Assembly (NCBI GenBank): GCA_026993355.1 | Contig: JALWTX010000001.1 | Span: 1 to 64,000 of the forward strand | DNA from: Flavobacteriales bacterium | GTDB lineage: Bacteria > Bacteroidota > Bacteroidia > Flavobacteriales > Flavobacteriaceae | Reading direction: 5' to 3' | Length of the DNA: 64,000 nucleotides | In this document: positions 7,356 through 61,903 of the stretch, in pieces | How positions within the stretch are numbered: the first letter of the stretch is position 1 | How the letters are laid out: the number at the start of each line of letters is the position of its first letter | Program-made: the position numbers and the translations under genes | The notes under the pieces: generated by a model | What the model was told of the DNA's origin: nothing | What the model saw: only the letters and a program-made list of their open reading frames with translations | Database searches by the model: none

Positions 7356-7404
7356 TTGATGATGTTTATTTAATCTTTAACGAACTGAATCGCAACTTTT
7401 ATTT

Positions 7405-8979: not shown

Positions 8980-9022
8980 TATAATTTTATTTTAATTAAT
9001 TTAAATTTTAATTGAAAAATAC

Positions 9023-9679: not shown

Positions 9680-9739
9680 AATAAATAAATTTTAGTAGTT
9701 AGTATTTGTTTTATTTGTGAGTTTTTATTGATTATCCTA

Positions 9740-27293: not shown

Positions 27294-28232
27294 ATGAAAA
27301 AATTAGTTATCATTCTACTACTCTCATTAGGTTTTTCTTTAAAAGGACAAAATATTTTGGGGATTGATGTCTCTCACCACCAAAACAGCGTAAATTGGAC
27401 ATTGGTGTATAACGATGGAAAAGTTTTTGCTTTTTGCAAAGCTACGGAAGGCCGCACTTACCAAGATCCTAATTTTAACACTTATATGGTCAACGGAAAA
27501 AATGCAGGCCTGTTAATGGGTGCATATCATTTTGCCCGTCCCGATAATAATACTGCTACTCAAGAAGCCAATAATTTTCTTACACATGCGCAAAATTTTA
27601 TTGGCGATGACTATTTGCCACCGGTATTAGATGTAGAAGATCCACCAAATGGACATTTAGACCAACTATATACTGCTACACAATTAACTAATTGGGTGCA
27701 AACATGGCTAACTGAAGTGGAAAATCAAACCGGTATCAAGCCTATTATTTACACTAATGCGCATTATGCCGCTTATTTAAAACCTTCATTAAACACTTAC
27801 GGCTTATGGATTGCCAATCCGGGAACCAGTCCTTCTACACCGCCCACCAATATTGGCAATTGGCAAACATGGCTCTTTAAACAATATGATTGGTACGGAA
27901 ATGTCAACGGCATAAATGGCAACGTCGACTTAAATGTATTTAATGGAACGGCAAACGACTTGTATAATTTGACACATACTAATGGCATAGAGCAATGGCA
28001 GAACTATTTACATATTTACCCTAATCCTGCTCGAAATAATTTGTATGTCGATAATCAATCTGCTTTTAGATTAGATAAAATTGAAATCCGGGATATGCAA
28101 GGACGCTTATTATATGATCAAAAATATAAAGGTAAAGCCTTAAACATTCAAAAATTAAAACCGGGCATATACATTCTGCAAGTTAGATTATCCAATGGGC
28201 ATTTTCTTAGCAAACGATTTATAAAAAAATAG
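27294..28232 (+). CDS. GH25 family lysozyme with T9SS type A sorting domain
   Basis: ILGIDVSHHQNSVNW, AFCKATEGRTYQDPNF, LDVEDPP; C-terminal IYPNPARNNLYV...MQGRLLY...LKPGIYILQV...KRFIKK. Confidence 0.93.
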   Translation: MKKLVIILLLSLGFSLKGQNILGIDVSHHQNSVNWTLVYNDGKVFAFCKATEGRTYQDPNFNTYMVNGKNAGLLMGAYHFARPDNNTATQEANNFLTHAQNFIGDDYLPPVLDVEDPPNGHLDQLYTATQLTNWVQTWLTEVENQTGIKPIIYTNAHYAAYLKPSLNTYGLWIANPGTSPSTPPTNIGNWQTWLFKQYDWYGNVNGINGNVDLNVFNGTANDLYNLTHTNGIEQWQNYLHIYPNPARNNLYVDNQSAFRLDKIEIRDMQGRLLYDQKYKGKALNIQKLKPGIYILQVRLSNGHFLSKRFIKK

Positions 28233-37137: not shown

Positions 37138-37445
37138 GCATATGGTCAATTATAAAGGCAGATTATTTAACCAACGAAAATGCCGCCAAAAACTGGAGTT
37201 TTATTTTAATGTTGGTTATCATGGGGCTCAGTATCATCAATTTGTCACATTTGGCTGATGCTAAAGTAAAAAAAATAGTCAAACTAAATAAAGAAGTTAA
37301 AGCTTTACGTTCTGAATATGTGGAACTTAAAGCAAAAGTCATCAAACAAAAAATGGTGACCAATGTCTATGAACGGTTAAAAAACGAAGGCTTTGTTTTG
37401 CCTAAAAAACAACCCATAAAGATTAAATTTAAAGAACAAAAATGA
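37134..37445 (+). CDS. FtsL-like cell division protein
   Basis: 103 aa, single TM plus coiled coil between rsmH and ftsI. Confidence 0.85.
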   Translation: MSIWSIIKADYLTNENAAKNWSFILMLVIMGLSIINLSHLADAKVKKIVKLNKEVKALRSEYVELKAKVIKQKMVTNVYERLKNEGFVLPKKQPIKIKFKEQK

Positions 37446-39403
37446 ATCGCGAAGAAATAAATATTACCAAAAGAAGCGGGATTGTATTCAGCCTGCTGTT
37501 CTTCTTTGCTTTGCTTATTGTCGCAAAGTTGATTCATATTCAATATATAGAAGGGAACAAATACCGCGCGTTAGCCCAAAAATATACGCTTAAAGAATTC
37601 AAAATTAAAGCAAACCGCGGCAATATATATGCGGGTGATGGTAGTTTATTGGCTACATCTGTACCAAAATACGACATTGCCTTTGATCCGACAGCCCCAT
37701 CAGATCAAAACTTTAACCGGTATATTGATGTCCTTTGCCAAAAACTCTCAAGGCAAACCGGAAAACCGGCCGAAAAATTTAAAAGAACTTTTGCCTCGGC
37801 CCGTAAACATAACCGTAAATATATAAAGATATTGAAAGGTGTTGATTATACTACCTATCAAAAAGTTAAAAAATACCCTTTGTTTAAATTGGGAGTTAAC
37901 AAAGGAGGTTTTATTGCTGAACTGCATACGAAGCGGGCTTATCCTTTAGGCAATATTTTAAAAAGAACCATAGGTTTTGATCACGGCAAAGGGAACAGCG
38001 CCGGTATAGAAGGGACTTACAGCAGTTATTTACGTGGAAAGGATGGAATGCAAAAGAAACAAAAAATAAAATATGGCGTTTGGAAACCACTAAGTGACAT
38101 AAATGATATTGAACCACAAGATGGTTATGATATAGTCACAAATATCGATTTAGATATGCAAAGTATGGCACATTATACTTTGCTCAACCAATTAAAAAAA
38201 TTTGAAGCAGAGCATGGCAGTTTGGTTATAATGGATGTTAAAACCGGGGCTATTAAAGCCATGGTAAATTTAGGACGGACGGCGGACGGCACTTACAAAG
38301 AACGCCGGAATTATGCCGTTTTCGAAACACATGAACCCGGTTCAACCTTTAAATTATTCTCTATCATGGCACTGTTAGAAGACAAACGAGTCAAACCCTC
38401 AGACATAGTTGATACAGGGAACGGTCTTTATAAAATCTATAACAAAAATGTGAGGGATGCCCATAGACATGGCTTAGGCAAACTTAGTGTTCAACAAGTT
38501 TTTGAAAAAAGCTCAAATGTCGGCGTTGTTAAATTGGTTTATAAAAATTACAAGGACAATCCGCAAGCTTTTGTCAACAGACTTTACAATTTCGGTTTGC
38601 ACGAAAAAGTACATATAGACATAAAAGGCGAAGGGCAGCCTTATATTCCCGATCCGAAAGATAAAAAATGGAGCGGCATCTCACTCCCTTGGATGGCTTA
38701 TGGCTACGGCGTTGAAATGACCGACATTCAGATTTTGTCTTATTACAATGCGATAGCCAATAACGGAAAAATGATGAAGCCATACTTGGTCAATAAAATT
38801 AAATCCTTCGATCATACCATAAAAGACTTTAACCCAAGAATATTAAACAGTTCTATTGCATCCGGCCCAACAATACATCAAATGCAAAAAATGCTGAGAG
38901 GCGTGGTCACAGAAGGAACAGCTACTAATATTAATAGTCCATTTGTAAAAATAGCCGGTAAAACAGGGACCGCACAAACAGAATATTGGAAAGGCAAGGG
39001 GCAATATATTGCCTCATTTGTCGGTTATTTCCCGGCAGATGAGCCTAAATATTCCATGATTGTGGTTGTGCATAAACCTAATCCCGAAAAAGGTTATTAT
39101 GGCAATATTGTAGCCGCACCGGTATTTAAAACAATGGCAGAATATATTTATGGCAGGATGCCCAAAAATATAAAATTGGCCGCTTTAAATTCGAAAACAG
39201 CTAAAAAAACCGAACAAATTGCAGAGAAATACAAAACCATAATGCCCGATTTAAAGGGATTGCCCTCTAAAGATGCGCTCTACATTTTAGAAAACATGGG
39301 TTTGAAAGTGCATTTAAATGGTCATGGCAACGTTATAAAACAATCGATACCCCGTGGACAAAAAATCAGAAAAAATCAATTGGTTGAACTTAAATTAACA
39401 TGA
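37442..39403 (+). CDS. ftsI: Penicillin-binding protein (FtsI-type) with PASTA domain
   Basis: HEPGSTFKLFS (SxxK), EKSSNVG (SxN), AGKTGTAQ (KTG), C-terminal MPDLKGLPSKDALYILENMGLKV. Confidence 0.94.
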   Translation: MNREEINITKRSGIVFSLLFFFALLIVAKLIHIQYIEGNKYRALAQKYTLKEFKIKANRGNIYAGDGSLLATSVPKYDIAFDPTAPSDQNFNRYIDVLCQKLSRQTGKPAEKFKRTFASARKHNRKYIKILKGVDYTTYQKVKKYPLFKLGVNKGGFIAELHTKRAYPLGNILKRTIGFDHGKGNSAGIEGTYSSYLRGKDGMQKKQKIKYGVWKPLSDINDIEPQDGYDIVTNIDLDMQSMAHYTLLNQLKKFEAEHGSLVIMDVKTGAIKAMVNLGRTADGTYKERRNYAVFETHEPGSTFKLFSIMALLEDKRVKPSDIVDTGNGLYKIYNKNVRDAHRHGLGKLSVQQVFEKSSNVGVVKLVYKNYKDNPQAFVNRLYNFGLHEKVHIDIKGEGQPYIPDPKDKKWSGISLPWMAYGYGVEMTDIQILSYYNAIANNGKMMKPYLVNKIKSFDHTIKDFNPRILNSSIASGPTIHQMQKMLRGVVTEGTATNINSPFVKIAGKTGTAQTEYWKGKGQYIASFVGYFPADEPKYSMIVVVHKPNPEKGYYGNIVAAPVFKTMAEYIYGRMPKNIKLAALNSKTAKKTEQIAEKYKTIMPDLKGLPSKDALYILENMGLKVHLNGHGNVIKQSIPRGQKIRKNQLVELKLT

Positions 39404-40890
39404 AAAAATCATTCGACATATTAAAAGATATCGAAGTTCTTAAAAGTGAAGGCGATAAAAACCGCCCTCTGAATCATATTCAATATGACTCAAGAAAAGT
39501 TGTGCCCGGTGACTTGTTTATAGCTTTAGAAGGCGTACAAACTGATGGTCATCAATACATTGAAAAAGCTATTGAAAAAGGTGCTAAAACCATTATCGTA
39601 GAAAAATGGCAAGAAAACCTACCGGCTGATATTACCCAAATTAAAGTGCCAAACACACATGCAGCATTAGCCATCATGGCGTCAAACTACTATAATCGTC
39701 CTTCCGCTAAATTAAAACTAATAGGTATAACCGGCACCAATGGCAAAACCACAACAGCAAGCCTGTCTTATCAGCTTTTTAAAAAAGCAGGTTATAAAGC
39801 CGGATTACTGTCAACCGTAAAAATTTTGGTTGACGATCAAACTTATCCGGCAACTCATACCACGCCCGACCCACTGATGATTAACTATTATTTAAATAAA
39901 ATGGTTAAAGCCGGCGTAACACACGCCTTTATGGAAGTCAGCTCGCATGGAATAGACCAACACCGTATTGTGGGATTAGATTTTGACGGTGCTGTTTTCA
40001 CCAACTTGACTCATGACCACTTGGATTATCATAAAACCTTTATCCAATACCGTGATACCAAAAAACAATTTTTTAATCAATTGAAAAAAGAAGCATTTGC
40101 CTTGGTTAATGCCGATGATAAAAACGGTCTGTTTATGCTGCAAAATACCGCAGCACGCAAACTTACATATGCCCTGAAAAATCCGGCTGATTACAAAGCC
40201 AAAATATTGGAACAAAATTTCTCAGGCATGTTACTTTCTATCAACAATATGGATGTTTGGGTACGCTTAGTGGGCTTATTTAATGCCTATAATATCTTAG
40301 CTGTTTTTGCCATTGCCGACCAACTTGGGACAGAAGCTTTTGAAAGTTTGCAAATCATTAGTCAATTGGAAAGTGTTGATGGCCGGTTTGAACTTATTTT
40401 ATCGCCAGAAGGTAAAATTGCCATAGTTGATTATGCTCATACACCCGATGCTTTAGAAAATGTGTTGAAAACAATCAACCGTATTCGCCCTAAAAATCAA
40501 GAAAAACTAATCACCGTTGTAGGAGCAGGTGGCAACCGCGACAAAACCAAAAGGCCGGAAATGGCTGCCGTTGCTGCCAAACTCAGTGACAGTGTCATAT
40601 TTACCTCCGACAATCCGCGTAATGAAAATCCGGAAACGATTATAGATGACATGGAAAAGGGTGTACCGGCTGAATATTACCGGAAAACCTTGCGTATTAC
40701 CGATAGACGGCAAGCCATTAGAGCTGCCGGCAGTTTAGCCAATCCGGGCGACATTATTTTAGTTGCCGGCAAAGGACATGAAGACTATCAAATCGTCAAT
40801 GACATAAAATCTCATTTTGATGATAGAGAAGAAATAAAAAAAGTTTTCGGTCTTACCGAAACCAAAATTTCACCTAAAAAACCAAACTAA
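39400..40890 (+). CDS. murE: UDP-N-acetylmuramoyl-L-alanyl-D-glutamate--2,6-diaminopimelate ligase
   Basis: [36 protein letters not shown] (meso-DAP DNPR motif); full length. Confidence 0.95.
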
Positions 40891-42107
40891 TGTTATATTA
40901 TTTTTTTCAACATATATGGCCTGATTTTCCGGGTGCCGGTTTGTTTAATTATCTCTCTTTTAGAGCTGGCATGTCCTTTATTACCGCACTCTTGTTTTCG
41001 TTATTGGTGGGAAAAAGAATCATCAAAATTTTACGAAATATGCAAATTGGCGAAACGGTACGCGATTTAGGTTTGGAAGGTCAAAAATCTAAAGAAGGAA
41101 CACCGACAATGGGCGGTATAATTATTATTTTGGCCACCCTAATTCCTGTTTTATTATTTAATGACCTGAGCAATATCTATGTGCAACTCTTATTGATCAC
41201 TCTTTTGTGGATGGGCCTTATAGGTTTTACCGATGATTATATCAAAGTCATCAAAAAAAATAAAGAAGGTTTGGCCGGCAAATTTAAAATATTGGGACAA
41301 ATTATCTTGGGAATAGTTGTGGGTACAGTGATGCTTGTCAACCAAAACGTAACTATCCGGACTGAAGATTTTTCGGCTCAAACCAAAGTTCATAAAAAAT
41401 TGGGTGAAAATTTTAAACCGGCAGAAAAATCCTTAAAAACTACTATTCCATTGATTAAAAATAATGAATTCAATTATCAATCAATTTTGAATGCTGTTAA
41501 TCATAATTGGGTAAAATATACCGGTATTTTATTTATTCTGATCGTTATTTTCATCATAACTGCTGTGTCAAATGCCGCAAATTTAACCGATGGCATCGAT
41601 GGTTTAGCAGCCGGAACCTCGGCGATCATCATTTTAGCATTAGCTTTGCTTGCCTGGATTTCAGGAAACATACTTATTGCCGATTATTTGAATATTATGT
41701 ACATCCCAAACATCGGCGAAGTCTCGGTATTTATTAGTGCATTTGCCGGCGCACTCATTGGTTTTTTATGGTTTAATGCATATCCGGCACAAGTTTTTAT
41801 GGGTGATACCGGCAGCTTAACCATTGGAGCCATCATTGCAGTAGTCGCCTTATTTATCCGTAAAGAATTACTATTGCCTTTATTAGCTGGTATTTTTGTT
41901 ATAGAAAATGCCTCTGTCATTATGCAACGGTTTTGGTTTAAATATACCAAAAAGAAATATGGAACCGGGAGAAGAGTTTTCTTAATGGCCCCCATTCATC
42001 ATCACTTTCAAAAAAAAGGTTGGCATGAAAATAAAATTGTCGTACGCTTTTGGATTATGGGAATCATTTTAGCGGCAATCAGTATTATAAGTTTGAAAAC
42101 AAGATAA
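40890..42107 (+). CDS. mraY: Phospho-N-acetylmuramoyl-pentapeptide-transferase
   Basis: [46 protein letters not shown]. Confidence 0.96.
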
Positions 42108-42124
42108 CACAAAAAAACAACGAG

Positions 42125-42646
42125 ATGCATACACAAACCGAACATAAAAATTTAGCTGCAATGACAGCCAAATTATTACAAAAAAGAAAACAGGCGTTTA
42201 AAAAACCCTTTCAGTCTTTCACCAATGTGGCACACAGGCTTGAGTCAGTTTACACTAAAAACGGGATTGTTTTCATCAACGATTCTAAAGCCGAAAACAT
42301 TAATGCCACTTATTTTGCCTTAGAAACCATACAAAAACCGGTTGTTTGGATTGCAGGTGGTGAAGATGCCGGTGCAGACTATTGGGAATTAATGGCTTTG
42401 GTCCGTCAGAAAGTAAAAGCCATTATTATGATTGGTCAAGACAATGAACGATTATTTCATATTTTTTCTCCGGTAATAGCTCAAATATTTGAGGCCGAAA
42501 ATATGGAAGAGGCGGTCAAACTTGCTTATAAAAACAGCCAGCCCGGGACACAAGTTTTGATGTCACCGGCTAGTAAACCGGACGAGCGTTTTATAGACTA
42601 TATGGAACGCGGAGAACAATTTAGAGAAGCGGTTAATAATTTATAA
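42125..42646 (+). CDS. MurD C-terminal ligase domain only (lacks UDP-binding and ATPase domains)
   Basis: 174 aa: SFTNVAHRLESVYTKNGIVFINDSKAENINATYFALETIQKPVVWIAGGEDAGADY...SPASKPDERFIDYMERGEQF matches MurD domain 3; no P-loop; position between mraY and ftsW. Confidence 0.85.
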   Translation: MHTQTEHKNLAAMTAKLLQKRKQAFKKPFQSFTNVAHRLESVYTKNGIVFINDSKAENINATYFALETIQKPVVWIAGGEDAGADYWELMALVRQKVKAIIMIGQDNERLFHIFSPVIAQIFEAENMEEAVKLAYKNSQPGTQVLMSPASKPDERFIDYMERGEQFREAVNNL

Positions 42647-42651
42647 TTAAA

Positions 42652-43839
42652 ATGAATAGATTTATCAAAGATTTAGGCGGTGATCGTCAGTTATGGGTCT
42701 ACACCATTCTACTGATGCTTTTTTCCTTTTGGATTGTCTATAGTGCCAGTAGCAATTTGGCAAATGTATATGGCAAAACATCTCCCTTTTTCTTTGGGAT
42801 AAAACATTTTATACATGTCTCAATCGGTTTTCTAATCATTTATTTTACCCATAAAATCACCCCCAAATATTTTTCGCATGTATCACGAATTGCGATGCCG
42901 GTCATAGTTTTGGTATTATTTTTCACCATTACACGCGGCTTAACTATGGGCGGAGCTAATGCCAGCCGTTGGATACACTTACCCGGCTTAGGCAGTGTAC
43001 AACCTTCGACTGTGGCATTTGTCTTATTAATGATGTTTACAGCCCGCTTTTTTGGTAAAACTAATTTTGCTAAAATGAGTTTTGCCGAGAGTTTCAAAAA
43101 TTATTGGATATGGGTTTTTGCTGTTGTTGGTTTAATATTACCGGCTAACCTGTCAACGGCTGCCTTGATTTTTACCATGGTAATTATTATCAGTATCATA
43201 GCCGGCTATCCGTATAAAGAATTGTTAAAAGTATTTGGGATTGGGCTGTTAGGCATAATTATGATGATTTTGGTTTTGAAAGCTTTTCCCGGACGATTCT
43301 CAAACCGTTTAGATACGTGGCAAAGTAGAATTGAAAGTTATTTTACATCAGATAAAGGAAAAGCAACCGGGATAAATGACAAAAATTATCAACAAGTACA
43401 AGCCAAAATAGCTATTGCTAAAGGAGGTTTATTGGGGTTCAGACCCGGTAAAAGTGTTCAAAAGAACTTTCTACCACAATCAGTTTCAGACTTTATTTAT
43501 GCTATCATAATCGAAGAATACAGCCTAACGGGCGGACTAATTATTCTGTTCGTATATCTTTTATTAGGCTTACGGATGTTTTTTATTGCCAAAAGAACCC
43601 CCGATCGGTATTATAAGTTATTGGTATTGGCCGTTGGGCTACCCATTATAGTCCAAGCACTGGCCAATATGGCTGTAGCTGTAGGCATATTTCCGGTTAC
43701 AGGTCAGCCTCTTCCATTGCTCAGCTCCGGTGGAACGGCTATTTGGATGAGTAGTTTTGCGATAGGTATTATTTTAAGTATTAGTCGATATACAGAGGTC
43801 AAAGAAAAGAAAGATTTAGATAATTTTATAAATGATTAA
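42652..43839 (+). CDS. ftsW: Lipid II polymerase FtsW (SEDS family)
   Basis: Ten-TM SEDS protein; GKSVQKNFLPQSVSDFIYAIIIEEYSL; GQPLPLLSSGGTA. Confidence 0.94.
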   Translation: MNRFIKDLGGDRQLWVYTILLMLFSFWIVYSASSNLANVYGKTSPFFFGIKHFIHVSIGFLIIYFTHKITPKYFSHVSRIAMPVIVLVLFFTITRGLTMGGANASRWIHLPGLGSVQPSTVAFVLLMMFTARFFGKTNFAKMSFAESFKNYWIWVFAVVGLILPANLSTAALIFTMVIIISIIAGYPYKELLKVFGIGLLGIIMMILVLKAFPGRFSNRLDTWQSRIESYFTSDKGKATGINDKNYQQVQAKIAIAKGGLLGFRPGKSVQKNFLPQSVSDFIYAIIIEEYSLTGGLIILFVYLLLGLRMFFIAKRTPDRYYKLLVLAVGLPIIVQALANMAVAVGIFPVTGQPLPLLSSGGTAIWMSSFAIGIILSISRYTEVKEKKDLDNFIND

Positions 43840-44942
43840 TGAGGAACGAAAAACAACATATTAAGGTAATCATTAGCGGCGGCGGAACCGGTGGGCATAT
43901 TTTTCCTGCTCTGGCTATAGCTGATGAAATAAAAAAGCGTAAGCCTCAAGCGGAAATCTTGTTTATTGGGGCCAAAGATCGTATGGAAATGGAAAAAGTG
44001 CCGGCGCACGGCTATCCTATAAAAGGTTTATGGATATCAGGTATAAACAGACAGCATAAATGGCGCAACTGGCAATTTCCGCTCCAAATTTTGAGTAGCC
44101 TGATAAAAGCCAAAAAAATTGTTAAAAATTTTAAACCCGATGTGGTTATCGGAACCGGCGGCTTTGCCAGTGGCCCCATATTATATGCGGCACAGCAAAA
44201 AAACATTCCGACTTTTATACAAGAACAAAATTCATATCCGGGTATTACCAACAAAATTTTGAGCAAAAAAGCACAAAAAATATTTACGGCTTATGATCAT
44301 CTTGAGCGTTTTTTTGCATCCGATAAAATAATAAAAACCGGCAATCCTGTTAGAGAAGATTTGCATAAGCCACTCAACGATGCCAAGAAATCGCGGCAAT
44401 TTTTTGGGTTAAAACCCGATAAAAAAACAATTTTAGTTTTAGGTGGTAGTTTAGGTGCCCGACCGATAAACGAAGCTATAAAAGAAAAACTACCCTCTCT
44501 TTTAGCTAATGGCTATCAATTAATATGGCAAACCGGACCTAAAGATTTTGATAGATATAAAGATCTGGGAAATGAACAAGTAAAAGTCGTCCCTTTCATT
44601 AAAAACATGCACGAGGCCTATGCTGCTGCCGACATGATTATCTCACGTGCCGGAGCCGGAACTATTTCAGAATTGGCCATGGTAGGCAAACCGGTAGTGC
44701 TGGTGCCTTCGCCATATGTAGCAGAAGACCACCAAACCAAAAATGCACAAGCATTGGTTGAAAATAAAGCCGCCATCCTTGTACCCGAAAAAAAATTAAA
44801 GGAAAAACTTTGCCCGGCTGTCAAAGAAATTTTTGGACAACCCGGAAAAGCAAATGAATTAAGTCAAAATCTAAAAAAAATGGCACAACCAAAGGCAACC
44901 CAAAAAATAGTAGACGAAATTTTTAAAACAATAAACTTGTAA
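43839..44942 (+). CDS. murG: UDP-N-acetylglucosamine--lipid I transferase
   Basis: ISGGGTGGHIFPALAIADE; SRAGAGTISELAMVGKPVVLVPSP. Confidence 0.96.
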   Translation: MRNEKQHIKVIISGGGTGGHIFPALAIADEIKKRKPQAEILFIGAKDRMEMEKVPAHGYPIKGLWISGINRQHKWRNWQFPLQILSSLIKAKKIVKNFKPDVVIGTGGFASGPILYAAQQKNIPTFIQEQNSYPGITNKILSKKAQKIFTAYDHLERFFASDKIIKTGNPVREDLHKPLNDAKKSRQFFGLKPDKKTILVLGGSLGARPINEAIKEKLPSLLANGYQLIWQTGPKDFDRYKDLGNEQVKVVPFIKNMHEAYAAADMIISRAGAGTISELAMVGKPVVLVPSPYVAEDHQTKNAQALVENKAAILVPEKKLKEKLCPAVKEIFGQPGKANELSQNLKKMAQPKATQKIVDEIFKTINL

Positions 44943-45641
44943 ATGAAAAAAAAGTTTTACATAATCGGCCTGTTATTTTTTCTTATTCTGACTATCGGTT
45001 TGGGCAGTATATTTGATCGACTTATAGAAGATGAACCGGTCAGAATTAAAAATGTCTATGTCTTTCCGTTAGACAAAACTTTTATTTTACCTAAAGAAGT
45101 AGCCAAACTGATCCCTATTAAAGGAAAAACTTACAAAAATATCGATATAAACGAAATAGAGAAAAAATTAGAAAAAAACAATTTTATCCAAAATGCCGAA
45201 GTGTATAAAGATTTAAACGGTCGATTAACAGCCAAAATAAAACAATATCAACCCATTGCCAGGGTGGTAAATAACAGCAACTCATACTACTTAGATAAAA
45301 AGGTCGATAAAAAACCGCTTTCAACCCATTTTACTGAAAATGTTGTCTTGGTTTTTGGCAAAATCCAAGACAAAGAAAAAAATAACCTTGTTGAACTTAT
45401 TAAAACTATTAACCACGATAAAATATTAAAAAACATTGTGACTGAAATACACATCAAAAATAATCTTATAGAAGTAAAAACCGATTTGTTAGCTGCCGAT
45501 ATGCTAATTGACCTAAATACTGACTTAAAAAAGCAATTAATTAAATTGAAAGCTATTTATGCTTATTTAACCAAAAAACATCAAACACAAAAATATCACC
45601 ATATCGATTTAAGATATGCCCGACAAGCCGTTTGTAAATAA
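44943..45641 (+). CDS. ftsQ: Cell division protein FtsQ/DivIB
   Basis: Single N-terminal TM, POTRA-like region, position before ftsA; start codon directly follows murG stop (TAA ATG). Confidence 0.85.
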   Translation: MKKKFYIIGLLFFLILTIGLGSIFDRLIEDEPVRIKNVYVFPLDKTFILPKEVAKLIPIKGKTYKNIDINEIEKKLEKNNFIQNAEVYKDLNGRLTAKIKQYQPIARVVNNSNSYYLDKKVDKKPLSTHFTENVVLVFGKIQDKEKNNLVELIKTINHDKILKNIVTEIHIKNNLIEVKTDLLAADMLIDLNTDLKKQLIKLKAIYAYLTKKHQTQKYHHIDLRYARQAVCK

Positions 45642-49580: not shown

Positions 49581-52500
49581 ATGAATAAATTTAAGCTCTT
49601 ATTCTTGGTGTTAAGCTTAACCTTTGCGCAATTTATTACAGCACAAGAGGTAAGTGTATCCGGGAAAGTAACCGATACCAAAGGTGAACCTATTCCCGGT
49701 GCGAATGTAACTGTTCAAGGACAAAACAAAGGAACAGCAACAGACTTTGACGGTCAGTACCAAATCAAAGTCCATCCCGGTGATGTATTGGTATTTTCCT
49801 CAATTGGATACCAGATAGTCAAAAAACCTGTAAAAAAAGGTGGCACACTAAATGTAAAATTGAAAGAAAGTTCGGATTTGCTCAATAAAGTTGTGGTAAC
49901 CGCCATGGGTATAAAAAAAGAAGAGAAAGCCATTGGTTACGCCACTCAACAAGTTAAAATAAATGATTTGAAGCAAACCAATCAAAATGTCTTAGCCAAC
50001 TTACAAGGACAAATATCAGGAGTACAAATAAATCAATCATCAGGAGCCGTTGGTGGCGGTGTTGACATATTAATTCGTGGTGTAAAATCTTTAGATCCTT
50101 CGGTTAGTAATCAGCCACTTATTATAGTTGACGGGGTCCGTATCAGTAATGATATTGTAGCCGGAAACGTATTACCATCGGCAGGTAGTAATGCCCCCAG
50201 TAGTGCTGAGCAGTTTTCATTTGCCAACCGTGCTATTGATATAAATCCGGATGATATCGAAAGTATTAATGTACTTAAAGGTGCAGCGGCGGCGGCCCTG
50301 TATGGTATTGATGCGGCTAATGGTGCTATTGTTATCACCACCAAAAAAGGAATTAAAGGCAAACCGCAGTTTACATTTACCGCAAAAACCTCTGCCAGCC
50401 AAGTTAACAAATATTTAGAATTGCAAAGCAAATGGCGTGAAGGACGCGGAAAGACTTCTCGTGTTACTTTAGATCCGAATAATCCAAATATTAATCCGGT
50501 CCAATCCCGCGGATATGGTGCTCAAAAAGGATTCTGGCTTATCAATGGCGCAACTTATAGTTTTCATACATGGGGACCAGAATATGGTGATGATCCAACG
50601 ATTAAATTTCATGATATCTATCGCGACTTTTTCCAAACCGGTATAAATAATAATATCAATTTCAGCGTCCGGGGCGGCGCAGACAAATATACTTATTATC
50701 TTTCTTTAGGTGATAACATCAGTAGCGGAATTGTGCCAAATACTGACTTTAGCAAAATTAACGCACGTTTTAAAGGCAGTTACCAATTGACGCCTAAATT
50801 TAAATTAGGCCTCTCTACATCTTATACCAATTCAAAAGGGAAATTGCCAAATAATGGTGACAAATCGATTATGAGTTCTATGTCTTATTGGTCTCCCTCT
50901 ATTGATGTAAACGATTATTTATTGCCGGATGGCAGTCAAAAAAATTACACACCTAATTGGATAGACAACCCCCGGTATTTTGCCGAAAAAAGTAACCTTC
51001 AAACCAAAGTTAACCGCTTTATTAACAGTGCTAATGCCAATTGGAAAATAAACGACCGGCTTAATTTAAACTATCGCTTGTCTAATGACCAATATGTTGA
51101 TGCACGAAACCGTTTTGTACCGGCTGATTTGGATGTCGGGACACAAGTAAAAGGCTTTATTGTCAACCAAAATATACGCTTTAATTTGCTAAATTCATTA
51201 TTAATGGTTAATTATAAATATAACCTTAACAATGATATGAACCTTACATTTATTGCAGGTAATGAAATAACCAAACAAAATCACGTTTTTGACACACAAA
51301 GAGCTGAAACCCTCATTTTACCTTATTTAAATAATATTTCAAATGGAGAAAATTTTTATACTTTCAGCAAAGAAATAGGTAAAAACCGGGTTGGTGTATT
51401 TGGCGAAGTAGATATGAATTATAAAGATAAATTGTTTGTGACCGTAACCGGACGTAATGACTGGAGTTCCACCCTTCCTGCCCAAAACAGATCTTTCTTT
51501 TATCCATCAGTAAATGTGTCTTACATAGCAACTGATTTATTTGATAAAAGCAATGATATTTTATCTTTAGCCAAATTCCGCTTCTCATGGGCTAATGTTG
51601 GTAAAGATGCACCGGCAGGTGTACTGGGCACCCATTGGGGCATCAGCAATTATCCGACCAACAATGGATCCGCAGGGGGTATTTACCCTTATACGGTTGA
51701 AGGCGATGTTAATTTAAAACCCGAAAATCAACGTACAACTGAAGTCGGATTTGACTTGCGCTTTTTTAACAACCGTTTTCGTATAGATTATACTTATTAC
51801 GACAACTTAAATACCGATTTGATTGCAAAAATTCCGGTTTCACTGACCTCGGGCAAAACAGCTATTTGGAAAAATGCCGGTAGTTTGCAAAACAAAGGAC
51901 ATGAAGTTATTTTAAGTGGCCGGTGGATAGATCAGAATGATTTTTCATGGAGTTCCACCTTAAATTGGTCCACCAACCAAGGAAAAGTAACAAATTTGCC
52001 TGATGGAATTGAATCTATTATTTATGCCAGTAGTGGTTATGCCGGTATCGTATCTATGGTAAAAGAAGGTGACGAACCCGGCACATTATATGGTTACAAA
52101 TGGAAATATAATGATCAAGGACAAAGAATTATTGACAGTAACGGCCTGCCTATTATAGACACCAGTAAAAAAGTCGTAGTCGGTCATGCGTTCCCCGATT
52201 GGGTTGGGTCATTATCTAACAGTTTTACATACAAAAATTTCAATTTTAATTTTATGATTGAATATAAAAAAGGTGGTGATGCCTACGATGCCGGACAACG
52301 AAATTCTATTCGTAACGGAACCATAAAACTAACCGAATTACGTTATGAAAATGTCGTTTTGGAGGGCGTACAAGATGATGGCAATGGTGGTTGGAAACCC
52401 AATGAAACCCCAGTTTATATTGATGAAAACTATTACCGTAGTTCGAGCCATTATAACCGTGCTGCCGAAATATTGGTACAAGATGCTTCTTGGGTTAAGT

Positions 52501-52730
52501 TAAGAAATATCTCATTAACTTATACATTGCCTAAAAACCTACTTAAAAATTCTTTTATTAAGAAAGTACAATTTAATGCAACCGGCAGCAATTTCTTACT
52601 ATGGACACCCTTTAGAGGTTTTGACCCGGAAGGCAGTCAATATTCAGCAGGTTCTAATACTTATGGATTTACCGGTTTGAATATTCCACTGACACAAACC
52701 TATAGCTTAGGTGTTAAATTCCAATTTTAA
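49581..52730 (+). CDS. SusC/RagA family TonB-linked outer membrane protein
   Basis: VSGKVTDTKGEPIPGANVTVQGQNKGTATDFDGQYQI; LIIVDGVRI; NVLKGAAAAALYGIDAANGAIVITTKKG. Confidence 0.96.
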   Translation: MNKFKLLFLVLSLTFAQFITAQEVSVSGKVTDTKGEPIPGANVTVQGQNKGTATDFDGQYQIKVHPGDVLVFSSIGYQIVKKPVKKGGTLNVKLKESSDLLNKVVVTAMGIKKEEKAIGYATQQVKINDLKQTNQNVLANLQGQISGVQINQSSGAVGGGVDILIRGVKSLDPSVSNQPLIIVDGVRISNDIVAGNVLPSAGSNAPSSAEQFSFANRAIDINPDDIESINVLKGAAAAALYGIDAANGAIVITTKKGIKGKPQFTFTAKTSASQVNKYLELQSKWREGRGKTSRVTLDPNNPNINPVQSRGYGAQKGFWLINGATYSFHTWGPEYGDDPTIKFHDIYRDFFQTGINNNINFSVRGGADKYTYYLSLGDNISSGIVPNTDFSKINARFKGSYQLTPKFKLGLSTSYTNSKGKLPNNGDKSIMSSMSYWSPSIDVNDYLLPDGSQKNYTPNWIDNPRYFAEKSNLQTKVNRFINSANANWKINDRLNLNYRLSNDQYVDARNRFVPADLDVGTQVKGFIVNQNIRFNLLNSLLMVNYKYNLNNDMNLTFIAGNEITKQNHVFDTQRAETLILPYLNNISNGENFYTFSKEIGKNRVGVFGEVDMNYKDKLFVTVTGRNDWSSTLPAQNRSFFYPSVNVSYIATDLFDKSNDILSLAKFRFSWANVGKDAPAGVLGTHWGISNYPTNNGSAGGIYPYTVEGDVNLKPENQRTTEVGFDLRFFNNRFRIDYTYYDNLNTDLIAKIPVSLTSGKTAIWKNAGSLQNKGHEVILSGRWIDQNDFSWSSTLNWSTNQGKVTNLPDGIESIIYASSGYAGIVSMVKEGDEPGTLYGYKWKYNDQGQRIIDSNGLPIIDTSKKVVVGHAFPDWVGSLSNSFTYKNFNFNFMIEYKKGGDAYDAGQRNSIRNGTIKLTELRYENVVLEGVQDDGNGGWKPNETPVYIDENYYRSSSHYNRAAEILVQDASWVKLRNISLTYTLPKNLLKNSFIKKVQFNATGSNFLLWTPFRGFDPEGSQYSAGSNTYGFTGLNIPLTQTYSLGVKFQF

Positions 52731-52740
52731 ATTTAAAAAA

Positions 52741-54225
52741 ATGAAAAAAATGAAACATATAAAAATTTTACTTCTTGCTTTGTTGTTGGTATTTACAGCA
52801 TCGGGGTGTAAAGACTTCTTCGATGTTAATGAGCCCTCAAACGTGGTTCCACCTAATGAACATAAACTAAACTTGCTTTTACCATCGGCCGAATATTATA
52901 CCATTAATATGCAGTTTGCAGAAGCCTTTTCAATAGGTCAGGTACAGCAACATATTGCTTCTTATTTTGACCACGGTATAGATCAACATTATGAGTCATC
53001 GGTATCAGGGGTTTGGCGCAATTTTTACACCAAAGCTTTATATACCCTCAGACGCATGGATGAATTGGCACAACAAAAAAATGCCGTTCACTATCAAGGT
53101 ATTATCAATGTTTTAAAAGCACTGAATTTAGGTATGACCACTGATTTATATGGTGATATCCCTTATTTTGAAGCTTCAATGGGATCTAACAATTTACAAC
53201 CGGCTGTAGATAGTCAACAAACCTTGTACAATGAAATTCAAAGTTTATTAGACAATGCTATTGCTCAGTTAAATGCCACTGACAATTCAGGTTTAGCAAA
53301 TATTAAAGGAGACGGCGTTTACAATGGTGATTTGGGTAAATGGACCCGATTGGCTTACACCCTAAAAGCACGCTATGCTATGCATTTAATTAAAAGAAAC
53401 GGCGCCGTTGCAGCTGCAAATGAGGCACTGAATTATTTACAAAATGGCTTTACATCTAATGCTGACGATTTTCAACTAAAATTTAATGAAAAACAAAAAA
53501 ATCCTTGGCACACTTCGGTTGTTTTAGCCTCAAATACAGGAAATATTTCGGTCCTGTTTTCAGAGCAGTTGGTGAATTATATGAATAGTAGTATTTATCC
53601 GACAGCCAATTATGATCCACGTATTTATGATTACATCGACAATGGTGGCGCACCTACATTTGATGGTGCTTTAAATGGAAATGAAGGCAAAACAGCAGCT
53701 AACACACCGGCTAATACAGAATTTAATGCCAATAGCTATTATTTTAAACAAGACTCGCCGATTGTCATGGTTAGTTATGCCGAGGCACTTTTCTTAAAAG
53801 CCGAAGCCGAATTTTTAGCCAATGGTGGCACAACGACTTCAACAGGTAGTACACAAGCCGCTTATGATGCTTACAAAGCCGGAATAGAAGCTAATATGAA
53901 TAAAATAGGCATTGATTCGGCTTTACGTGATGCTTACCTGTCTGACCCTGCAATAGATATGGGTGTGGCAAACTTGAAATTGAAAGACATCATGGTCCAA
54001 AAATATATCGCCTTACTTTTAAATCCGGAAGTCTTTACCGATATGCGACGCTACGATTTTTCAACCGATGTTTATCCCGGATTGAACTTACCGGCTAACC
54101 AAAATCCGGATATTGCCGGAGATTGGTTCAAGCGTGCCATTTATCCTGTTTCAGAATTGAATCGTAATCCGAATCTCAATGCAACTTTCCAACCGATTAA
54201 TGTGCCGGTTTGGTGGGAACAATAA
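52741..54225 (+). CDS. SusD/RagB family nutrient-binding lipoprotein
   Basis: Lipobox LVFTASGCKD; ALNLGMTTDLYGDIPYFEA; pairs with upstream SusC; start trimmed to downstream ATG. Confidence 0.94.
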   Translation: MKKMKHIKILLLALLLVFTASGCKDFFDVNEPSNVVPPNEHKLNLLLPSAEYYTINMQFAEAFSIGQVQQHIASYFDHGIDQHYESSVSGVWRNFYTKALYTLRRMDELAQQKNAVHYQGIINVLKALNLGMTTDLYGDIPYFEASMGSNNLQPAVDSQQTLYNEIQSLLDNAIAQLNATDNSGLANIKGDGVYNGDLGKWTRLAYTLKARYAMHLIKRNGAVAAANEALNYLQNGFTSNADDFQLKFNEKQKNPWHTSVVLASNTGNISVLFSEQLVNYMNSSIYPTANYDPRIYDYIDNGGAPTFDGALNGNEGKTAANTPANTEFNANSYYFKQDSPIVMVSYAEALFLKAEAEFLANGGTTTSTGSTQAAYDAYKAGIEANMNKIGIDSALRDAYLSDPAIDMGVANLKLKDIMVQKYIALLLNPEVFTDMRRYDFSTDVYPGLNLPANQNPDIAGDWFKRAIYPVSELNRNPNLNATFQPINVPVWWEQ

Positions 54226-55307: not shown

Positions 55308-58100
55308 ATGACAGACCTAAACAAAAAATTTGATCCGGAAAAACACATTTTGATAGAAGAAGCAACTGAAAACAACCTTAAAAATGTCAGCTTACTTATA
55401 CCTCGTAATAAATTGGTTGTTATTACGGGTGTTTCAGGTAGTGGCAAATCCAGTTTGGCCTATGACACCTTATATGCTGAAGGACAACGCCGTTACATCG
55501 AAAGTTTATCTTCATATGCACGTCAATTTTTAGGCAAAATACAAAAACCAAAAGTTAAAAGTATCAAAGGGATTGCACCTGCTATTGCCATAAAACAAAA
55601 AGTAAACACAGCCAATCCACGCTCAACGGTCGGTACTGCAACAGAAATCTATGATTATTTAAAACTCTTATTCGCCCGTATCGGCAAAACCATTTCACCG
55701 GTGTCGGGACAAGAAGTCAAAAAACATAGTGTCTCAGATGTCATTAACTTTTTAAAGGAACAAAAAACCGGCAGCCGTTGGATTTTATCGGTTGATTTAA
55801 AAGCGCATCACGGTAAAGACTTAAAAACCATTATCCGTATTTTGGAACAACAAGGCTATGCCCGTGTCAAAATCCAGGACCAATTGGTATCAATTTCCGA
55901 GGTTTTGCGTTTAAAAAAAATGCCTGAGAATATGGCTTTGGTCATTGACCGTATTCAACTTAAAGAGGATCCTGATTATTGGAACCGTTTGGCAGATTCC
56001 ATTCAAAAAGCTTTTTTTGAAGGACATGGACAATTAAGCCTAACGGATTGGCAGACACAAAAAACTTACCAATTTTCGCAAAATTTCAATTTAGACGGCC
56101 TTGATTTTCCCGAACCCAGCATACATTTATTTAGTTTTAACACGCCTTATGGCGCTTGCCATGTTTGTGACGGATTTGGCAGCATTTTGGGTATTGACCC
56201 GCAAAAAGTTATACCCAATACCACCTTATCGGTATATGAAGATGCCATTGCTTGTTGGAGAGGCAGCAGCTTAAAATATTACAAAGACCAGTTGTTAGAA
56301 CACGCCCACAAATTCAATTTTCCTGTCCATAAACCTTGGTTTGAATTAAGCCCTGAAGAACAAGCACTTGTTTGGAATGGCAACCAATATTTCACCGGAA
56401 TAAATGATTTCTTTAAAGAATTAGAACAAAAAAGTTACAAAATACAAAACCGTGTATTATTGGCCCGATACCGTGGCAAAACCACTTGTCCGTCTTGCAA
56501 AGGCAAGCGTTTGCGTCAAGAAGCATTTTATGTACAAGTAGGCGGTAAAAATATAGGAGATTTAATTGATTTGCCAATCGAAGAACTCCAAGAATTTTTT
56601 AAAAAATTAAACCTCTCCGAAGCAGAACAAGAAATAGCCAAACGCATTTTATATGAAATTAATAGCCGTATCACATTTTTAATAAATGTCGGTTTAGGCT
56701 ATTTAACCTTAAATCGCCCTTCAAATACCTTATCCGGTGGCGAAACGCAACGAATCAATTTGGCTACCTCGCTAGGCAGTAGTCTTATTGGGTCCATTTA
56801 TGTTTTGGATGAACCCAGTATCGGCTTACACCCAAAAGATACCGAACGGCTTACCGGTGTACTGCAAAATCTGCGCGATTTGGGTAATACAGTTATCGTC
56901 GTCGAACATGATGAAGACATTATGAAAGCTGCCGATTACATCATTGACATGGGCCCTGAAGCCGGTACTTTCGGGGGTGAAGTGGTAGCAGCAGGAAATT
57001 ATCAAAATATTCTGAAAAGCACTTCATTAACGGCCAAATACCTTAATGGTCAAGAAACTATCGCCCTCCCGGCTTTACGCCGTCAACCTAAAGATTTTAT
57101 CAAAATAACCGGCGCAAGACAACATAATTTAAAAAACATAAATGTTAAATTTCCACTACATAGCCTGTCGGTAATTACAGGCGTCTCCGGAAGTGGCAAA
57201 AGCACCTTGGCTTCAGAAATTATTTATCCTGCTATCCATAAAAAACTTTTTGATCACGGGCCAAAGATAGGTGAAATGACTGCTTTGGAAGGTAGCATTG
57301 ACCGGTTGGAACATGTTGAATACCTCGATCAAAATCCAATTGGACGTAGTAGCCGATCCAATCCGGTAACTTACATCAAGGCTTATGATGATATTCGCAA
57401 CTTATTCGCCGCACAACCACTGGCCAAAATAAAACATTTAAAACCCAAGCATTTTAGTTTTAATGTCGAAGGCGGGCGTTGCGAACATTGTAAAGGTGAA
57501 GGAACGGTGACCATTGAAATGCAATTTATGGCAGATGTACATCTCACTTGCGAAGTATGTGGTGGAAAACGCTTTAAAGACGAAATTTTAGAAGTGAAAT
57601 ATCAAGGCAAAAGCATTCATGATATTTTGGACATGCGAGTCGATGAAGCCATTGATTTTTTCAAAATTCACAAACAAGATAAAATTGTCCAAAAACTTAA
57701 ACCCTTACAAGATGTCGGTTTGGGCTATGTAAGTTTAGGCCAATCCTCTTCCACCCTTTCTGGAGGCGAGGCACAACGGATAAAACTGGCTTCTTTTTTG
57801 GTAAAAGGAAATCGTCAGCCCAAAACTTTATTTATTTTTGATGAACCCACTACCGGTTTACATTTTCATGATATCAAAAAATTATTAAACTCGTTTAATG
57901 CTTTAATAGAAAACGGTCACAGTATATTGGTTATAGAACATAATATGGAAATAATTAAATCGGCCGACTGGCTTATCGATTTAGGGCCCGAAGGCGGAAA
58001 AAAAGGAGGTGAATTGGTTTTTGAAGGCACGCCCGAAGCACTGGTTAAAGACGGCAAATCATTATTAACACCTTATCTGAAAGAGAAATTAAAAATCTAA
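55308..58100 (+). CDS. uvrA: Excinuclease ABC subunit UvrA
   Basis: VITGVSGSGKSSLAYDTLYAEGQRRYIESLSSYARQFL; two ABC cassettes and CxxC zinc modules. Confidence 0.97.
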   Translation: MTDLNKKFDPEKHILIEEATENNLKNVSLLIPRNKLVVITGVSGSGKSSLAYDTLYAEGQRRYIESLSSYARQFLGKIQKPKVKSIKGIAPAIAIKQKVNTANPRSTVGTATEIYDYLKLLFARIGKTISPVSGQEVKKHSVSDVINFLKEQKTGSRWILSVDLKAHHGKDLKTIIRILEQQGYARVKIQDQLVSISEVLRLKKMPENMALVIDRIQLKEDPDYWNRLADSIQKAFFEGHGQLSLTDWQTQKTYQFSQNFNLDGLDFPEPSIHLFSFNTPYGACHVCDGFGSILGIDPQKVIPNTTLSVYEDAIACWRGSSLKYYKDQLLEHAHKFNFPVHKPWFELSPEEQALVWNGNQYFTGINDFFKELEQKSYKIQNRVLLARYRGKTTCPSCKGKRLRQEAFYVQVGGKNIGDLIDLPIEELQEFFKKLNLSEAEQEIAKRILYEINSRITFLINVGLGYLTLNRPSNTLSGGETQRINLATSLGSSLIGSIYVLDEPSIGLHPKDTERLTGVLQNLRDLGNTVIVVEHDEDIMKAADYIIDMGPEAGTFGGEVVAAGNYQNILKSTSLTAKYLNGQETIALPALRRQPKDFIKITGARQHNLKNINVKFPLHSLSVITGVSGSGKSTLASEIIYPAIHKKLFDHGPKIGEMTALEGSIDRLEHVEYLDQNPIGRSSRSNPVTYIKAYDDIRNLFAAQPLAKIKHLKPKHFSFNVEGGRCEHCKGEGTVTIEMQFMADVHLTCEVCGGKRFKDEILEVKYQGKSIHDILDMRVDEAIDFFKIHKQDKIVQKLKPLQDVGLGYVSLGQSSSTLSGGEAQRIKLASFLVKGNRQPKTLFIFDEPTTGLHFHDIKKLLNSFNALIENGHSILVIEHNMEIIKSADWLIDLGPEGGKKGGELVFEGTPEALVKDGKSLLTPYLKEKLKI

Positions 58101-59236
58101 ATTTGCCGGTAATCATTCCCTTCTATCAATACCTGCGCCGGAAGCGATTGCAGATTATATTGTGACGCCATTACATAACCATAGGCACCAGCATTTTCGA
58201 TCATCAAAATGTCGTCTTTTTGTACAGGACTTAACTCCCGGTTATAAGCAAAGGTGTCTTCTTCACACAATACGCCTACCACATCATATGTTTGGGTAGG
58301 TACAGAAGTATTTGATAAGTTAACTATTTGATGATAAGCATCATAATACATCGGACGAATTAAGTGATGAAAACCGGAATTTACACCGATAAATTTTTTG
58401 TTATAACCTTGTTTTACCACATTAACTTTGACTAATAGCACACCGGCATTGCTAACGATGAATTTGCCCGGTTCAAATTTTAATTGAATATCTCTATTGA
58501 AGGATTTTAAACTTTTTTGCAAAAAACCGGCATAAGCCTGTAGATCGATCTCCGTATCCGAAGGATGATATTTGACTTTAAATCCGCTGCCTAAATCTAA
58601 ATATTTAAGGTCCGGAAAATGTTTAGAAAAATCCATTAAAACCTCTGCCGAACGGGCTAAATCATGCCAAGTTTTTACATCAGAACCGGTATGCAAATGC
58701 AATGAATCGACCTTTAACCCGGCGTTTAAATATTTTTTAATCAGATTTAATTGGGTAACCGGAATCCCAAATTTAGAATTATAATGTGCTGTGGCTATTT
58801 TTTGATTGCCGGCAATCTTTGTATCGGGATTAATCCGCAAACCAACGGCTTTATGAGGAAAACTTTTCAAAATAAAATCAAAGTATTCGACAGCACCGAT
58901 ATGAACATGAATATCATGGCTAAAAGCAAAAGCCAAATCAGCCTCGGAGGGACAACTCGGGGTAAAAATAATCTGATTCTTGTCAAAACCCAAGCTTAAG
59001 GCATGTTTGATTTCGTTAACAGAAACCGCATCTACTCCTAAATGATTTTCCTTGATAATTTTTAAAATTTCTGGATTTTCATTAGCTTTCATTGCATAAT
59101 GCAATTGATAAGGCAAATTTTTAAAAGCTGTTTTCAAACGATTTATTTGTGCGACAATTCTATCCTTATCATACACATAAACCGGTGTGCCGACATTATT
59201 AGCAATCGCCAAAAGAAGTTTGTGCTCAAATGACAT
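58097..59236 (-). CDS. lysA: Diaminopimelate decarboxylase
   Basis: LHYAMKANENPEILK PLP-Lys motif, LHLHTGSDV, FEPGKFIV, CEEDTFAYNREL. Confidence 0.92.
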   Translation of the reverse strand: MSFEHKLLLAIANNVGTPVYVYDKDRIVAQINRLKTAFKNLPYQLHYAMKANENPEILKIIKENHLGVDAVSVNEIKHALSLGFDKNQIIFTPSCPSEADLAFAFSHDIHVHIGAVEYFDFILKSFPHKAVGLRINPDTKIAGNQKIATAHYNSKFGIPVTQLNLIKKYLNAGLKVDSLHLHTGSDVKTWHDLARSAEVLMDFSKHFPDLKYLDLGSGFKVKYHPSDTEIDLQAYAGFLQKSLKSFNRDIQLKFEPGKFIVSNAGVLLVKVNVVKQGYNKKFIGVNSGFHHLIRPMYYDAYHQIVNLSNTSVPTQTYDVVGVLCEEDTFAYNRELSPVQKDDILMIENAGAYGYVMASQYNLQSLPAQVLIEGNDYRQI

Positions 59237-60658: not shown

Positions 60659-61903
60659 ATGAAAAAGAATTTTATTTTACTTGCTCTTTTTCTGCTTAGC
60701 TTAGTAGCTTGTCAAACAAACAAACCCAAAAACAAAAGTTTAAGCGAAAAACCCAAAGATAGTATCGTTAAAGAAATTGCCAAGATTTATGATTATCCCC
60801 GGAAACAATATATTATTGACAAAGATACGGTTGCACCAAATGATACTTTTGGTAAAATTTTAAGTCAATTTCATTTACCTTATGCTTCAATTTATAAAAT
60901 AACACAGAAAATAAAAGACAGTTTTGATGTTCGAAATATAAAAACCGGGCGTCCTTATGTGGTTCTTAGCCGTCAAGATTCATTAGACAGTTTACCACGT
61001 CCTAAAGTTTTTATTTATCAGCAAGATCCCATCCATTATACTGTTATCGATTTTCAAGACTCTATCAAAGTTTGGCACAAAACCAAAAAAATTACCAAAA
61101 AACGGCAAAAGGCTTATGTAAAAATTGAAAAATCACTCTACCAAGACATTGCCGACCATCATTTGAGCCCAAAATTGGCTATGGAACTAAATAATATTTA
61201 TGCCTGGACAGTAGATTTTTTTCATTTAAATAAAGGCGATTCATTTAAGGTTATATATGATGATATTTATATAGATGATACAACCTATGTGGGTATTGGT
61301 CCCATTCATGCTGCTGAATTTAACTATGGCGGCAGAGATTTTTACGCTTTTCGTTATCCCACTGATTCTATACATCATATTTTTGACTATTTTGATGAGA
61401 AAGGAAGGACCTTACGCAAACAATTTTTAAAAGCACCGTTAAAATTCGGAAGAATCAGTTCGCGATACAATTTGCACCGGTTTATTAAATATTATGGCCG
61501 TGTGAAACCACATTTAGGGACTGATTTTGCCGCCCCCACCGGCACGCCTATTATGTCAACCGCCAATGGAACGGTGATTAAAAAAGGTTATACCTCCGGC
61601 AATGGCAATTATATAAAAATAAGGCACAATGCCACTTATACAACCCAATATTTGCATATGAGCCGTTTTGCCAAAGGTATTCATGTCGGCAGCGTGGTTA
61701 AACAAGGTGAAATTATTGGTTATGTGGGTGCAACCGGACATGCTTCGGGTCCGCACGTCTGTTACAGATTTTGGAAAAATGGTCGTCAAGTGGATGCTTT
61801 AAAAGAAAAAATGCCGCCGGCAAAACCTATCGATAGCACTCTACTTCCTCAATATTTACAGTATATAAAACCTTATAAACAACAATTAGACAGCCTGCAA
61901 TGA
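60659..61903 (+). CDS. M23 family metallopeptidase (lipoprotein)
   Basis: Lipobox LVACQT; HLGTDFAAPTGTPIMSTANGTV, GNYIKIRHNATYTTQYLHMS, GHASGPHVCYRF. Confidence 0.93.
   Translation: MKKNFILLALFLLSLVACQTNKPKNKSLSEKPKDSIVKEIAKIYDYPRKQYIIDKDTVAPNDTFGKILSQFHLPYASIYKITQKIKDSFDVRNIKTGRPYVVLSRQDSLDSLPRPKVFIYQQDPIHYTVIDFQDSIKVWHKTKKITKKRQKAYVKIEKSLYQDIADHHLSPKLAMELNNIYAWTVDFFHLNKGDSFKVIYDDIYIDDTTYVGIGPIHAAEFNYGGRDFYAFRYPTDSIHHIFDYFDEKGRTLRKQFLKAPLKFGRISSRYNLHRFIKYYGRVKPHLGTDFAAPTGTPIMSTANGTVIKKGYTSGNGNYIKIRHNATYTTQYLHMSRFAKGIHVGSVVKQGEIIGYVGATGHASGPHVCYRFWKNGRQVDALKEKMPPAKPIDSTLLPQYLQYIKPYKQQLDSLQ

Follow-up and report, generated by a model that had tools for sequence, protein, structure and literature searches.

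A free-standing MurD C-terminal domain and the apparent loss of stem-peptide synthesis genes in a genus of marine flavobacteria

The murD-C locus and its neighborhood

The 64-kb window (the whole stretch of DNA analyzed here) belongs to a 2.2 Mb genome, 99.35% complete in 22 contigs, from a genus of marine flavobacteria. On its forward strand the dcw cluster includes the transpeptidase gene ftsI (37442..39403), so that cross-linking machinery is still there, a 496-aa DAP-type murE with the DNPR motif (39400..40890), an intact mraY encoding 405 aa (40890..42107), ftsW (42652..43839), murG (43839..44942) and, directly after it, ftsQ (44943..45641). Between mraY and ftsW we identified a single ORF, here termed murD-C (42125..42646, forward strand), which extends from an ATG at 42125 to a stop codon ending at 42646 and encodes 173 aa (174 codons with the stop). 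A 17-bp spacer (42108..42124) separates it from mraY. An earlier note on this DNA had described a 174-codon ORF standing alone between the two genes after a spacer of ~17 bp, and both observations were borne out; the bounds it gave, 42108-42651, mark the right locus but are slightly wide.

The same note recognized in this ORF only the C-terminal domain of MurD, without the P-loop and UDP-binding domains, and the profile searches agree. The murD-C protein aligns to positions 280-440 of the 441 in the TIGR01087 (MurD) profile in a protein scan (150.5 bits) and to positions 250-440 in a whole-genome scan (151.9 bits, E 2e-44), both scores being below the curated cut-off of 211.95 bits. Pfam assigns Mur_ligase_C (PF02875) alone, with 48.2 bits against a gathering threshold of 28.4, and neither Pfam nor TIGR01087 detects an N-terminal UDP-MurNAc-binding domain or a middle ATPase (P-loop) domain in the protein. 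An AlphaFold2 model computed from the window and relative sequences (mean pLDDT 86.8, core >93) confidently predicts the fold of MurD domain 3, and its top 33 Foldseek matches in the PDB are all MurD, aligned over domain 3 only. No second or full-length MurD was found in the source genome, where the other TIGR01087 matches are Mpl, MurF and MurE.

Several other genes of the window are related to the cell wall. The diaminopimelate decarboxylase gene lysA (58097..59236, reverse strand) is conserved beside the dcw cluster. A GH25 muramidase with a T9SS (Por_Secre_tail) sorting domain (27294..28232, forward strand) is a predicted secreted peptidoglycan hydrolase, also present in the relative G011, that may possibly release wall fragments from other bacteria. 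An M23-family peptidase (60659-61903, forward strand) has a Csd3-like second domain and a lipoprotein-like start, and resembles wall enzymes of the DD-endopeptidase type. The window also contains gldK-gldN-like genes of type IX secretion and gliding, judged by sequence alone (6468-11113, reverse strand), and a SusC/SusD-like importer pair (49581-54225, forward strand) that follows ftsZ and a GatB/YqeY-like gene and occupies the same place in G009, with 82-84% identity.

Remodeling and conservation of murD-C

We compared 11 murD-C proteins of the genus with 76 canonical MurD C-domains, using E. coli numbering transferred by alignment. Residues T321, K348 and S415, which contact D-Glu and D-Glu-mimicking inhibitors (PMC3527612), are present in 76/76 canonical MurDs and in 0/11 of the genus proteins. 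The T321 position is occupied by Glu in all 11, the K348 position by Ala, Thr, His, Glu or other residues, and the S415 position by Pro in ten and Ala in one; in the source protein the three are E57, A82 and P152. Lys is found at the A414 position and Asp at position 416 in 11/11. In contrast to the D-Glu contacts, the ATP-side residues R302, D317 and K319 (R38, D53 and K55 in the source protein), the last of which sits near ADP (PMC8788868), are unchanged in every genus sequence. The genus alignment has 50 invariant columns, some of them new and lineage-specific, and the newly fixed residues include E57, W87, K151 and D153.

These changes are visible in the sequence motifs. The earlier note correctly read SPASKPDERF and GGEDAGAD in place of the canonical SPACASxDxF and GGDxK, and thereby two of the altered D-Glu contacts, but it overlooked the third, T321 to Glu, by which INDSKATN became INDSKAEN. 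The usual reading of the former motif in the relatives is SPACKPD. Its claim that divergence is specific to catalytic positions matches the rewritten D-Glu pocket and the fixed ATP side. The D-Glu pocket has thus been swapped for a new set of fixed residues while the remaining fold was held. On its own, murD-C cannot be a D-Glu ligase.

The same truncated ORF, always open, lies between mraY and ftsW in 10 of the 12 further genomes of the genus (160-190 residues, 50-76% amino acid identity to the source), making it intact in 11/11 assembled loci. Three named records fall within the genus, JAMONO010000056, WFZY01000188 and JALVKK010000310; the first derives from sample set 4281-140, collected from deep-sea hydrothermal deposits (PMC9793634). 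Two of the 13 genomes are not assessable at the locus: in G001 the contig ends in murE, and in G007 the only MurD contig is foreign. We rejected G007 as a genus member with full MurD, as the MurG on this contig is only 33% identical. Full-length MurD is present in 71 other genomes of the family, and an order-wide survey found MurD above the cut-off in 288 of 298 genomes. The exceptions are the source genus, three genomes of the g17 clade, a single genus of another family, and six genomes from a single family whose size of ~0.3 Mb suggests that they are endosymbionts.

The median dN/dS of murD-C over all pairs of the 11 sequences is 0.12 (NG86), with synonymous sites near saturation across these pairs; the two closest pairs (0.066/0.76 and 0.091/0.99) agree with this median. 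The value is like that of murG (0.12), and compares with 0.16 for ftsQ and 0.06-0.07 for mraY, murE and ftsW. When murD-C is placed in a tree together with canonical MurD C-domains, the genus proteins form one clade with 100/100 support, whose stem (1.12 changes per site) is long relative to its tips (0.06-0.61). These branch lengths record a burst of change at the origin of murD-C and constraint afterwards. The spacer between mraY and murD-C reaches up to 421 bp in relatives, and the long spacers are stop-ridden. They hold no MurD remnant (best E about 1), so the first two MurD domains were removed outright and did not decay in place. Four of these long spacers (L021, L022, L026 and L030) are species-specific and AT-rich, with stretches resembling interspersed repeats.

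Two mundane readings of the locus can be weighed against these data. It is extremely improbable that a full murD dropped out during assembly or sits in sequence that never entered the contigs. Draft genomes make up most of the relatives, and two of the 13 genomes are not assessable at this locus, but a single structure recurs in 11 independent assemblies, with mraY and ftsW flanking it on the same contig. In addition, MurC, DapA and DapB are absent together, and the murG-ftsQ and DUF5683-lepB junctions are closed. The misassembly considered in the earlier note is excluded by the same gene standing in the same place in 10 more independently assembled genomes, and its other reservation, that relatives might all carry full-length murD here, does not hold inside the genus. 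There is only a very slight chance that murD-C is a decaying pseudogene, a truncated murD drifting to loss. Such decay would fit its faster evolution than mraY, murE and ftsW, the prior disappearance of MurC and the rest of MurD, and the g17 genome G028, which has no such gene at all; it is contradicted by 11/11 intact ORFs over deep divergence, by the low dN/dS, by the invariant columns that include new ones, and by the confident predicted fold. As the earlier note proposed, this is not a simple recent truncation: the ORF is genus-wide, always open and under purifying selection.

We conclude that murD-C is the third domain of an ancestral MurD whose UDP-binding and ATPase domains were lost once, before the radiation of the genus, and that it was then remodeled and retained as an independent protein that is not a ligase. 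Its sequence features identify it as a repurposed domain and not a remnant, because it is intact throughout the genus, evolves under purifying selection, has replaced the D-Glu contacts, retains R302, D317 and K319, and has acquired new invariants.

Lost and retained stem-peptide genes

Gene absences were called by profile HMM searches over draft genomes, with closed gene junctions backing those of murC and dapB only. Neither the 13 genomes of the genus nor the g17 clade has a MurC scoring above the cut-off, the best MurC-like protein being Mpl. In the window, the usual murC slot is empty, as murG ends at 44942 and ftsQ starts at 44943. DapB was not detected by profile searches in any genus genome. 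The canonical gene order parB-DUF5683-dapB-lepB is found in three families, whereas genus members have 38 bp between DUF5683 and lepB. At this junction in the source genome (G000, contig C15; L138:6547-6586) dapB is cleanly gone, and a dipeptide epimerase gene is located downstream, past lepB and a WbqC-like gene. DapA is likewise absent from the genus genomes except for a match in G007 (394 bits), which we rejected as foreign because it scores far above any flavobacterial copy; the LysA match of G007 (552 bits) was set aside for a similarly outlying score.

MurI was found in seven and DapF in nine of the 13 genomes. The genus DapF-like proteins are lower-scoring and longer than those elsewhere (319-338 residues vs about 257-293), and the substrate of the protein encoded at G000:C3:21541-22344 and of its relatives may have changed. 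LysA, which converts DAP to lysine, is kept in 12/13 genus genomes, and several other reduced genomes lack it. MraY, MurE, MurF, MurG, FtsW and FtsI are all retained, murE being strongly conserved though no enzyme known here makes its substrate, UDP-MurNAc-dipeptide. Judged by these searches, MurC, MurD, DapA and DapB are gone from the genus, and the patchy occurrence of MurI and DapF marks an ongoing loss. The source genome thus shows one feature of a Tannerella-like wall auxotroph, loss of essential precursor genes with retention of the downstream wall machinery. An unrelated replacement ligase or reductase is possible behind the absences. In G029, a further reduced genome (1.6 Mb, 92% complete), DapA and DapB are missing but MurC, MurD, MurI and DapF are kept.

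The retained MurC-like ligase is an orthologue of the second, non-dcw MurC-like ligase of Bacteroidota (Mpl), as it scores 468-1022 bits with Mpl orthologues vs 82-114 bits with MurC paralogues. Its NCBIfam Mpl score (176.9) is below the cut-off of 388.7 bits, which may only mean that this model is ill-suited to the Bacteroidota version of the enzyme. Canonical invariants are changed at 0/31 positions of the peptide-binding domain and 26/81 of the middle domain, a comparison for which the Fisher test is post hoc and ignores phylogeny. Eight middle-domain positions are uniformly changed across the genus, and none in the C-domain. A characterized Mpl turns over the DAP tripeptide at 260/min and the dipeptide L-Ala-D-Glu at 1.4/min, a ~180-fold preference (PMC3060825).

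All 13 genomes of the genus and all three of g17 encode an L-Ala-D/L-Glu-type dipeptide epimerase, counts that together with the gene losses represent two phylogenetic events, not sixteen; candidates occur in three of 16 canonical relatives. The genus proteins (337-352 aa) have no evident signal peptide, and their best PDB match is 3iji (E 4e-65). Residues K153, K155, D179, E205, D230, K252/K255, D302 and D304 are invariant in 17/17 aligned sequences and provide the features of the enolase superfamily (KxK, three acidic metal ligands, a second-side lysine and the DxD dipeptide motif), the exact substrate being predicted.

The g17 clade (three genomes, 94-99% complete) also lacks MurC and MurD and possesses Mpl and the dipeptide epimerase, and it lost these enzymes independently of the source genus. 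Its best genome, G028, has no MurI, DapA, DapB or DapF, keeps LysA, and has mraY followed directly by ftsW with no MurD domain. Since G028 manages without this domain, murD-C is not required for a salvage route as such. The g17 MurE reads TDNPRSEE, that is, DNPR is present. In G028 (L141/L133) the epimerase has a signal-like N-terminal extension and adjoins an SH3-NlpC/P60-like protein, which suggests that in this clade wall peptides may be cut outside the cytoplasm.

Peptide supply and the role of murD-C

The explanation that we regard as probable, if by no means assured, is that the genus cannot make the stem peptide and salvages DAP-containing wall peptides, with murD-C as a non-catalytic partner. 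Stem-peptide synthesis would have been lost with MurC, MurD, DapA and DapB, and with no stem peptide left to make, the genus could do without MurD activity. DAP-containing peptides from the peptidoglycan of other bacteria would be taken up, a flow of peptide deduced from the gene content, and Mpl would join them to UDP-MurNAc in place of MurC and MurD, after which MurF and the usual later enzymes would complete the wall. Surplus peptide may be catabolized by the dipeptide epimerase and LysA, the latter turning salvaged DAP into lysine. In the weakest step, murD-C would support the cytoplasmic Mur/MraY machinery encoded alongside, as a scaffold or non-catalytic partner. The protein is dcw-encoded, folded and selected and keeps its ATP-side residues; among its conceivable roles, partnership with the remaining Mur/MraY machinery most probably fits best. 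Against salvage stand the strong purifying selection on a MurE with the DAP-type motif, an enzyme superfluous to a route that uses tripeptide only, and the persistence of MurI in over half of the genus genomes. Of these, the conservation of MurE is the chief difficulty for this reading. The earlier note was right in proposing a repurposed domain but overlooked the genus-wide loss of MurC, DapA and DapB and the partial loss of MurI.

The MurE problem would disappear if L-Ala-L-Glu from protein breakdown were epimerized to L-Ala-D-Glu, ligated to UDP-MurNAc by Mpl, and extended by MurE with salvaged DAP, so that MurC, MurD and MurI were circumvented by synthesis and not by scavenging of whole tripeptides. 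We consider this a minority possibility that deserves attention: it accounts for the kept DAP-type MurE, for an epimerase without evident signal peptide in the genus, for an epimerase in every genome lacking MurC and MurD, and for the missing MurI of G028 and several genus members. However, it relies on the substrate that the characterized Mpl uses ~180-fold more slowly than the DAP tripeptide (PMC3060825), the peptide-binding domain of the genus Mpl is unchanged at canonical invariants, and the signal-like extension of the g17 epimerase misfits a cytoplasmic biosynthetic step. It is more doubtful that murD-C acts in trans, as an exchangeable third domain completing the active site of Mpl or MurE. 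Its fixed R302, D317 and K319 beside an amino-acid pocket rewritten with new fixed residues would suit this role, as would the eight uniform changes in the middle domain of Mpl with none in its C-domain, but Mpl and MurE each have a complete C-domain of their own, the changed Mpl positions are known from alignment, and G028 does without any MurD domain. Least likely of the three is their combination into a new route without MurC, MurD or D-Glu synthesis, in which an epimerized proteolytic dipeptide is ligated whole by Mpl and murD-C is the third domain or specificity subunit, in trans, of Mpl or MurE. If true, this route would involve a split, subunit-swapped Mur ligase, of which we know no example.

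Wall-peptide salvage with a partner role for murD-C, the reading that we prefer, has partial counterparts in known systems. With full-length MurD, murD-C shares the domain 3 fold, R302, D317 and K319, and the dcw position between mraY and ftsW; it differs by the absence of the UDP-binding and P-loop domains, the replaced D-Glu contacts, and a score below the family cut-off. The murein peptide ligase Mpl (PMC3060825), whose Bacteroidota orthologue is found here with its peptide-binding domain unchanged, normally supplements MurC-MurF, whereas in the genus it is the sole candidate for loading peptide on UDP-MurNAc. In E. coli recycling by MpaA, YcjG and Mpl and with Chlamydia YkfC (PMC9928106), the tripeptide is likewise either passed to Mpl or cleaved to DAP and L-Ala-D-Glu, followed by the epimerase; however, the wall recycled there is the bacterium's own, its stem peptide is synthesized by the same organism, and E. 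coli keeps MurC and MurD. Tannerella forsythia, a MurNAc auxotroph without MurA and MurB (PMC5388701, PMC7670621), is another member of Bacteroidota whose wall is assembled from scavenged fragments of peptidoglycan, but there the sugar half is scavenged, whereas here it would be the peptide half, genus-wide and in environmental bacteria. A rewired MurD step is found in the alternative pathway of Xanthomonas, MurD2/MurL (PMC8788868), where K348, A414 and L416 are altered and an epimerase takes the place of the D-Glu supply. MurD2, however, is full-length and MurL depends on ATP; neither applies to the genus, and the TIGR01087 scan revealed no full-length MurD2-like ligase in the source genome.

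Reuse of the Mur-ligase fold as a structural part is exemplified by plastid PAP11, a full-length MurE-like protein of a eukaryotic organelle with no known link to murD-C. The murD-C model has weak Foldseek matches to 8r6s_Q and 8ras_Q, which we take to be this PAP11, a MurE-like scaffold in the plastid RNA polymerase. Our search of the open-access literature returned no description of a stem-peptide auxotroph, of joint MurC and MurD loss, or of a stand-alone or truncated MurD domain.

MurC and MurD are drug targets and, to our knowledge, are held to be universally essential in walled bacteria, and Mpl is regarded as a recycling accessory. If the salvage reading is true, the genus would provide a natural bacterium that lives on the wall peptides of others with a conventional wall-assembly machine, a counterpart of the sugar dependence of Tannerella, and Mpl alone would be able to carry precursor synthesis. 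The murD-C protein offers a direct test of a structural, non-catalytic role for a Mur ligase.
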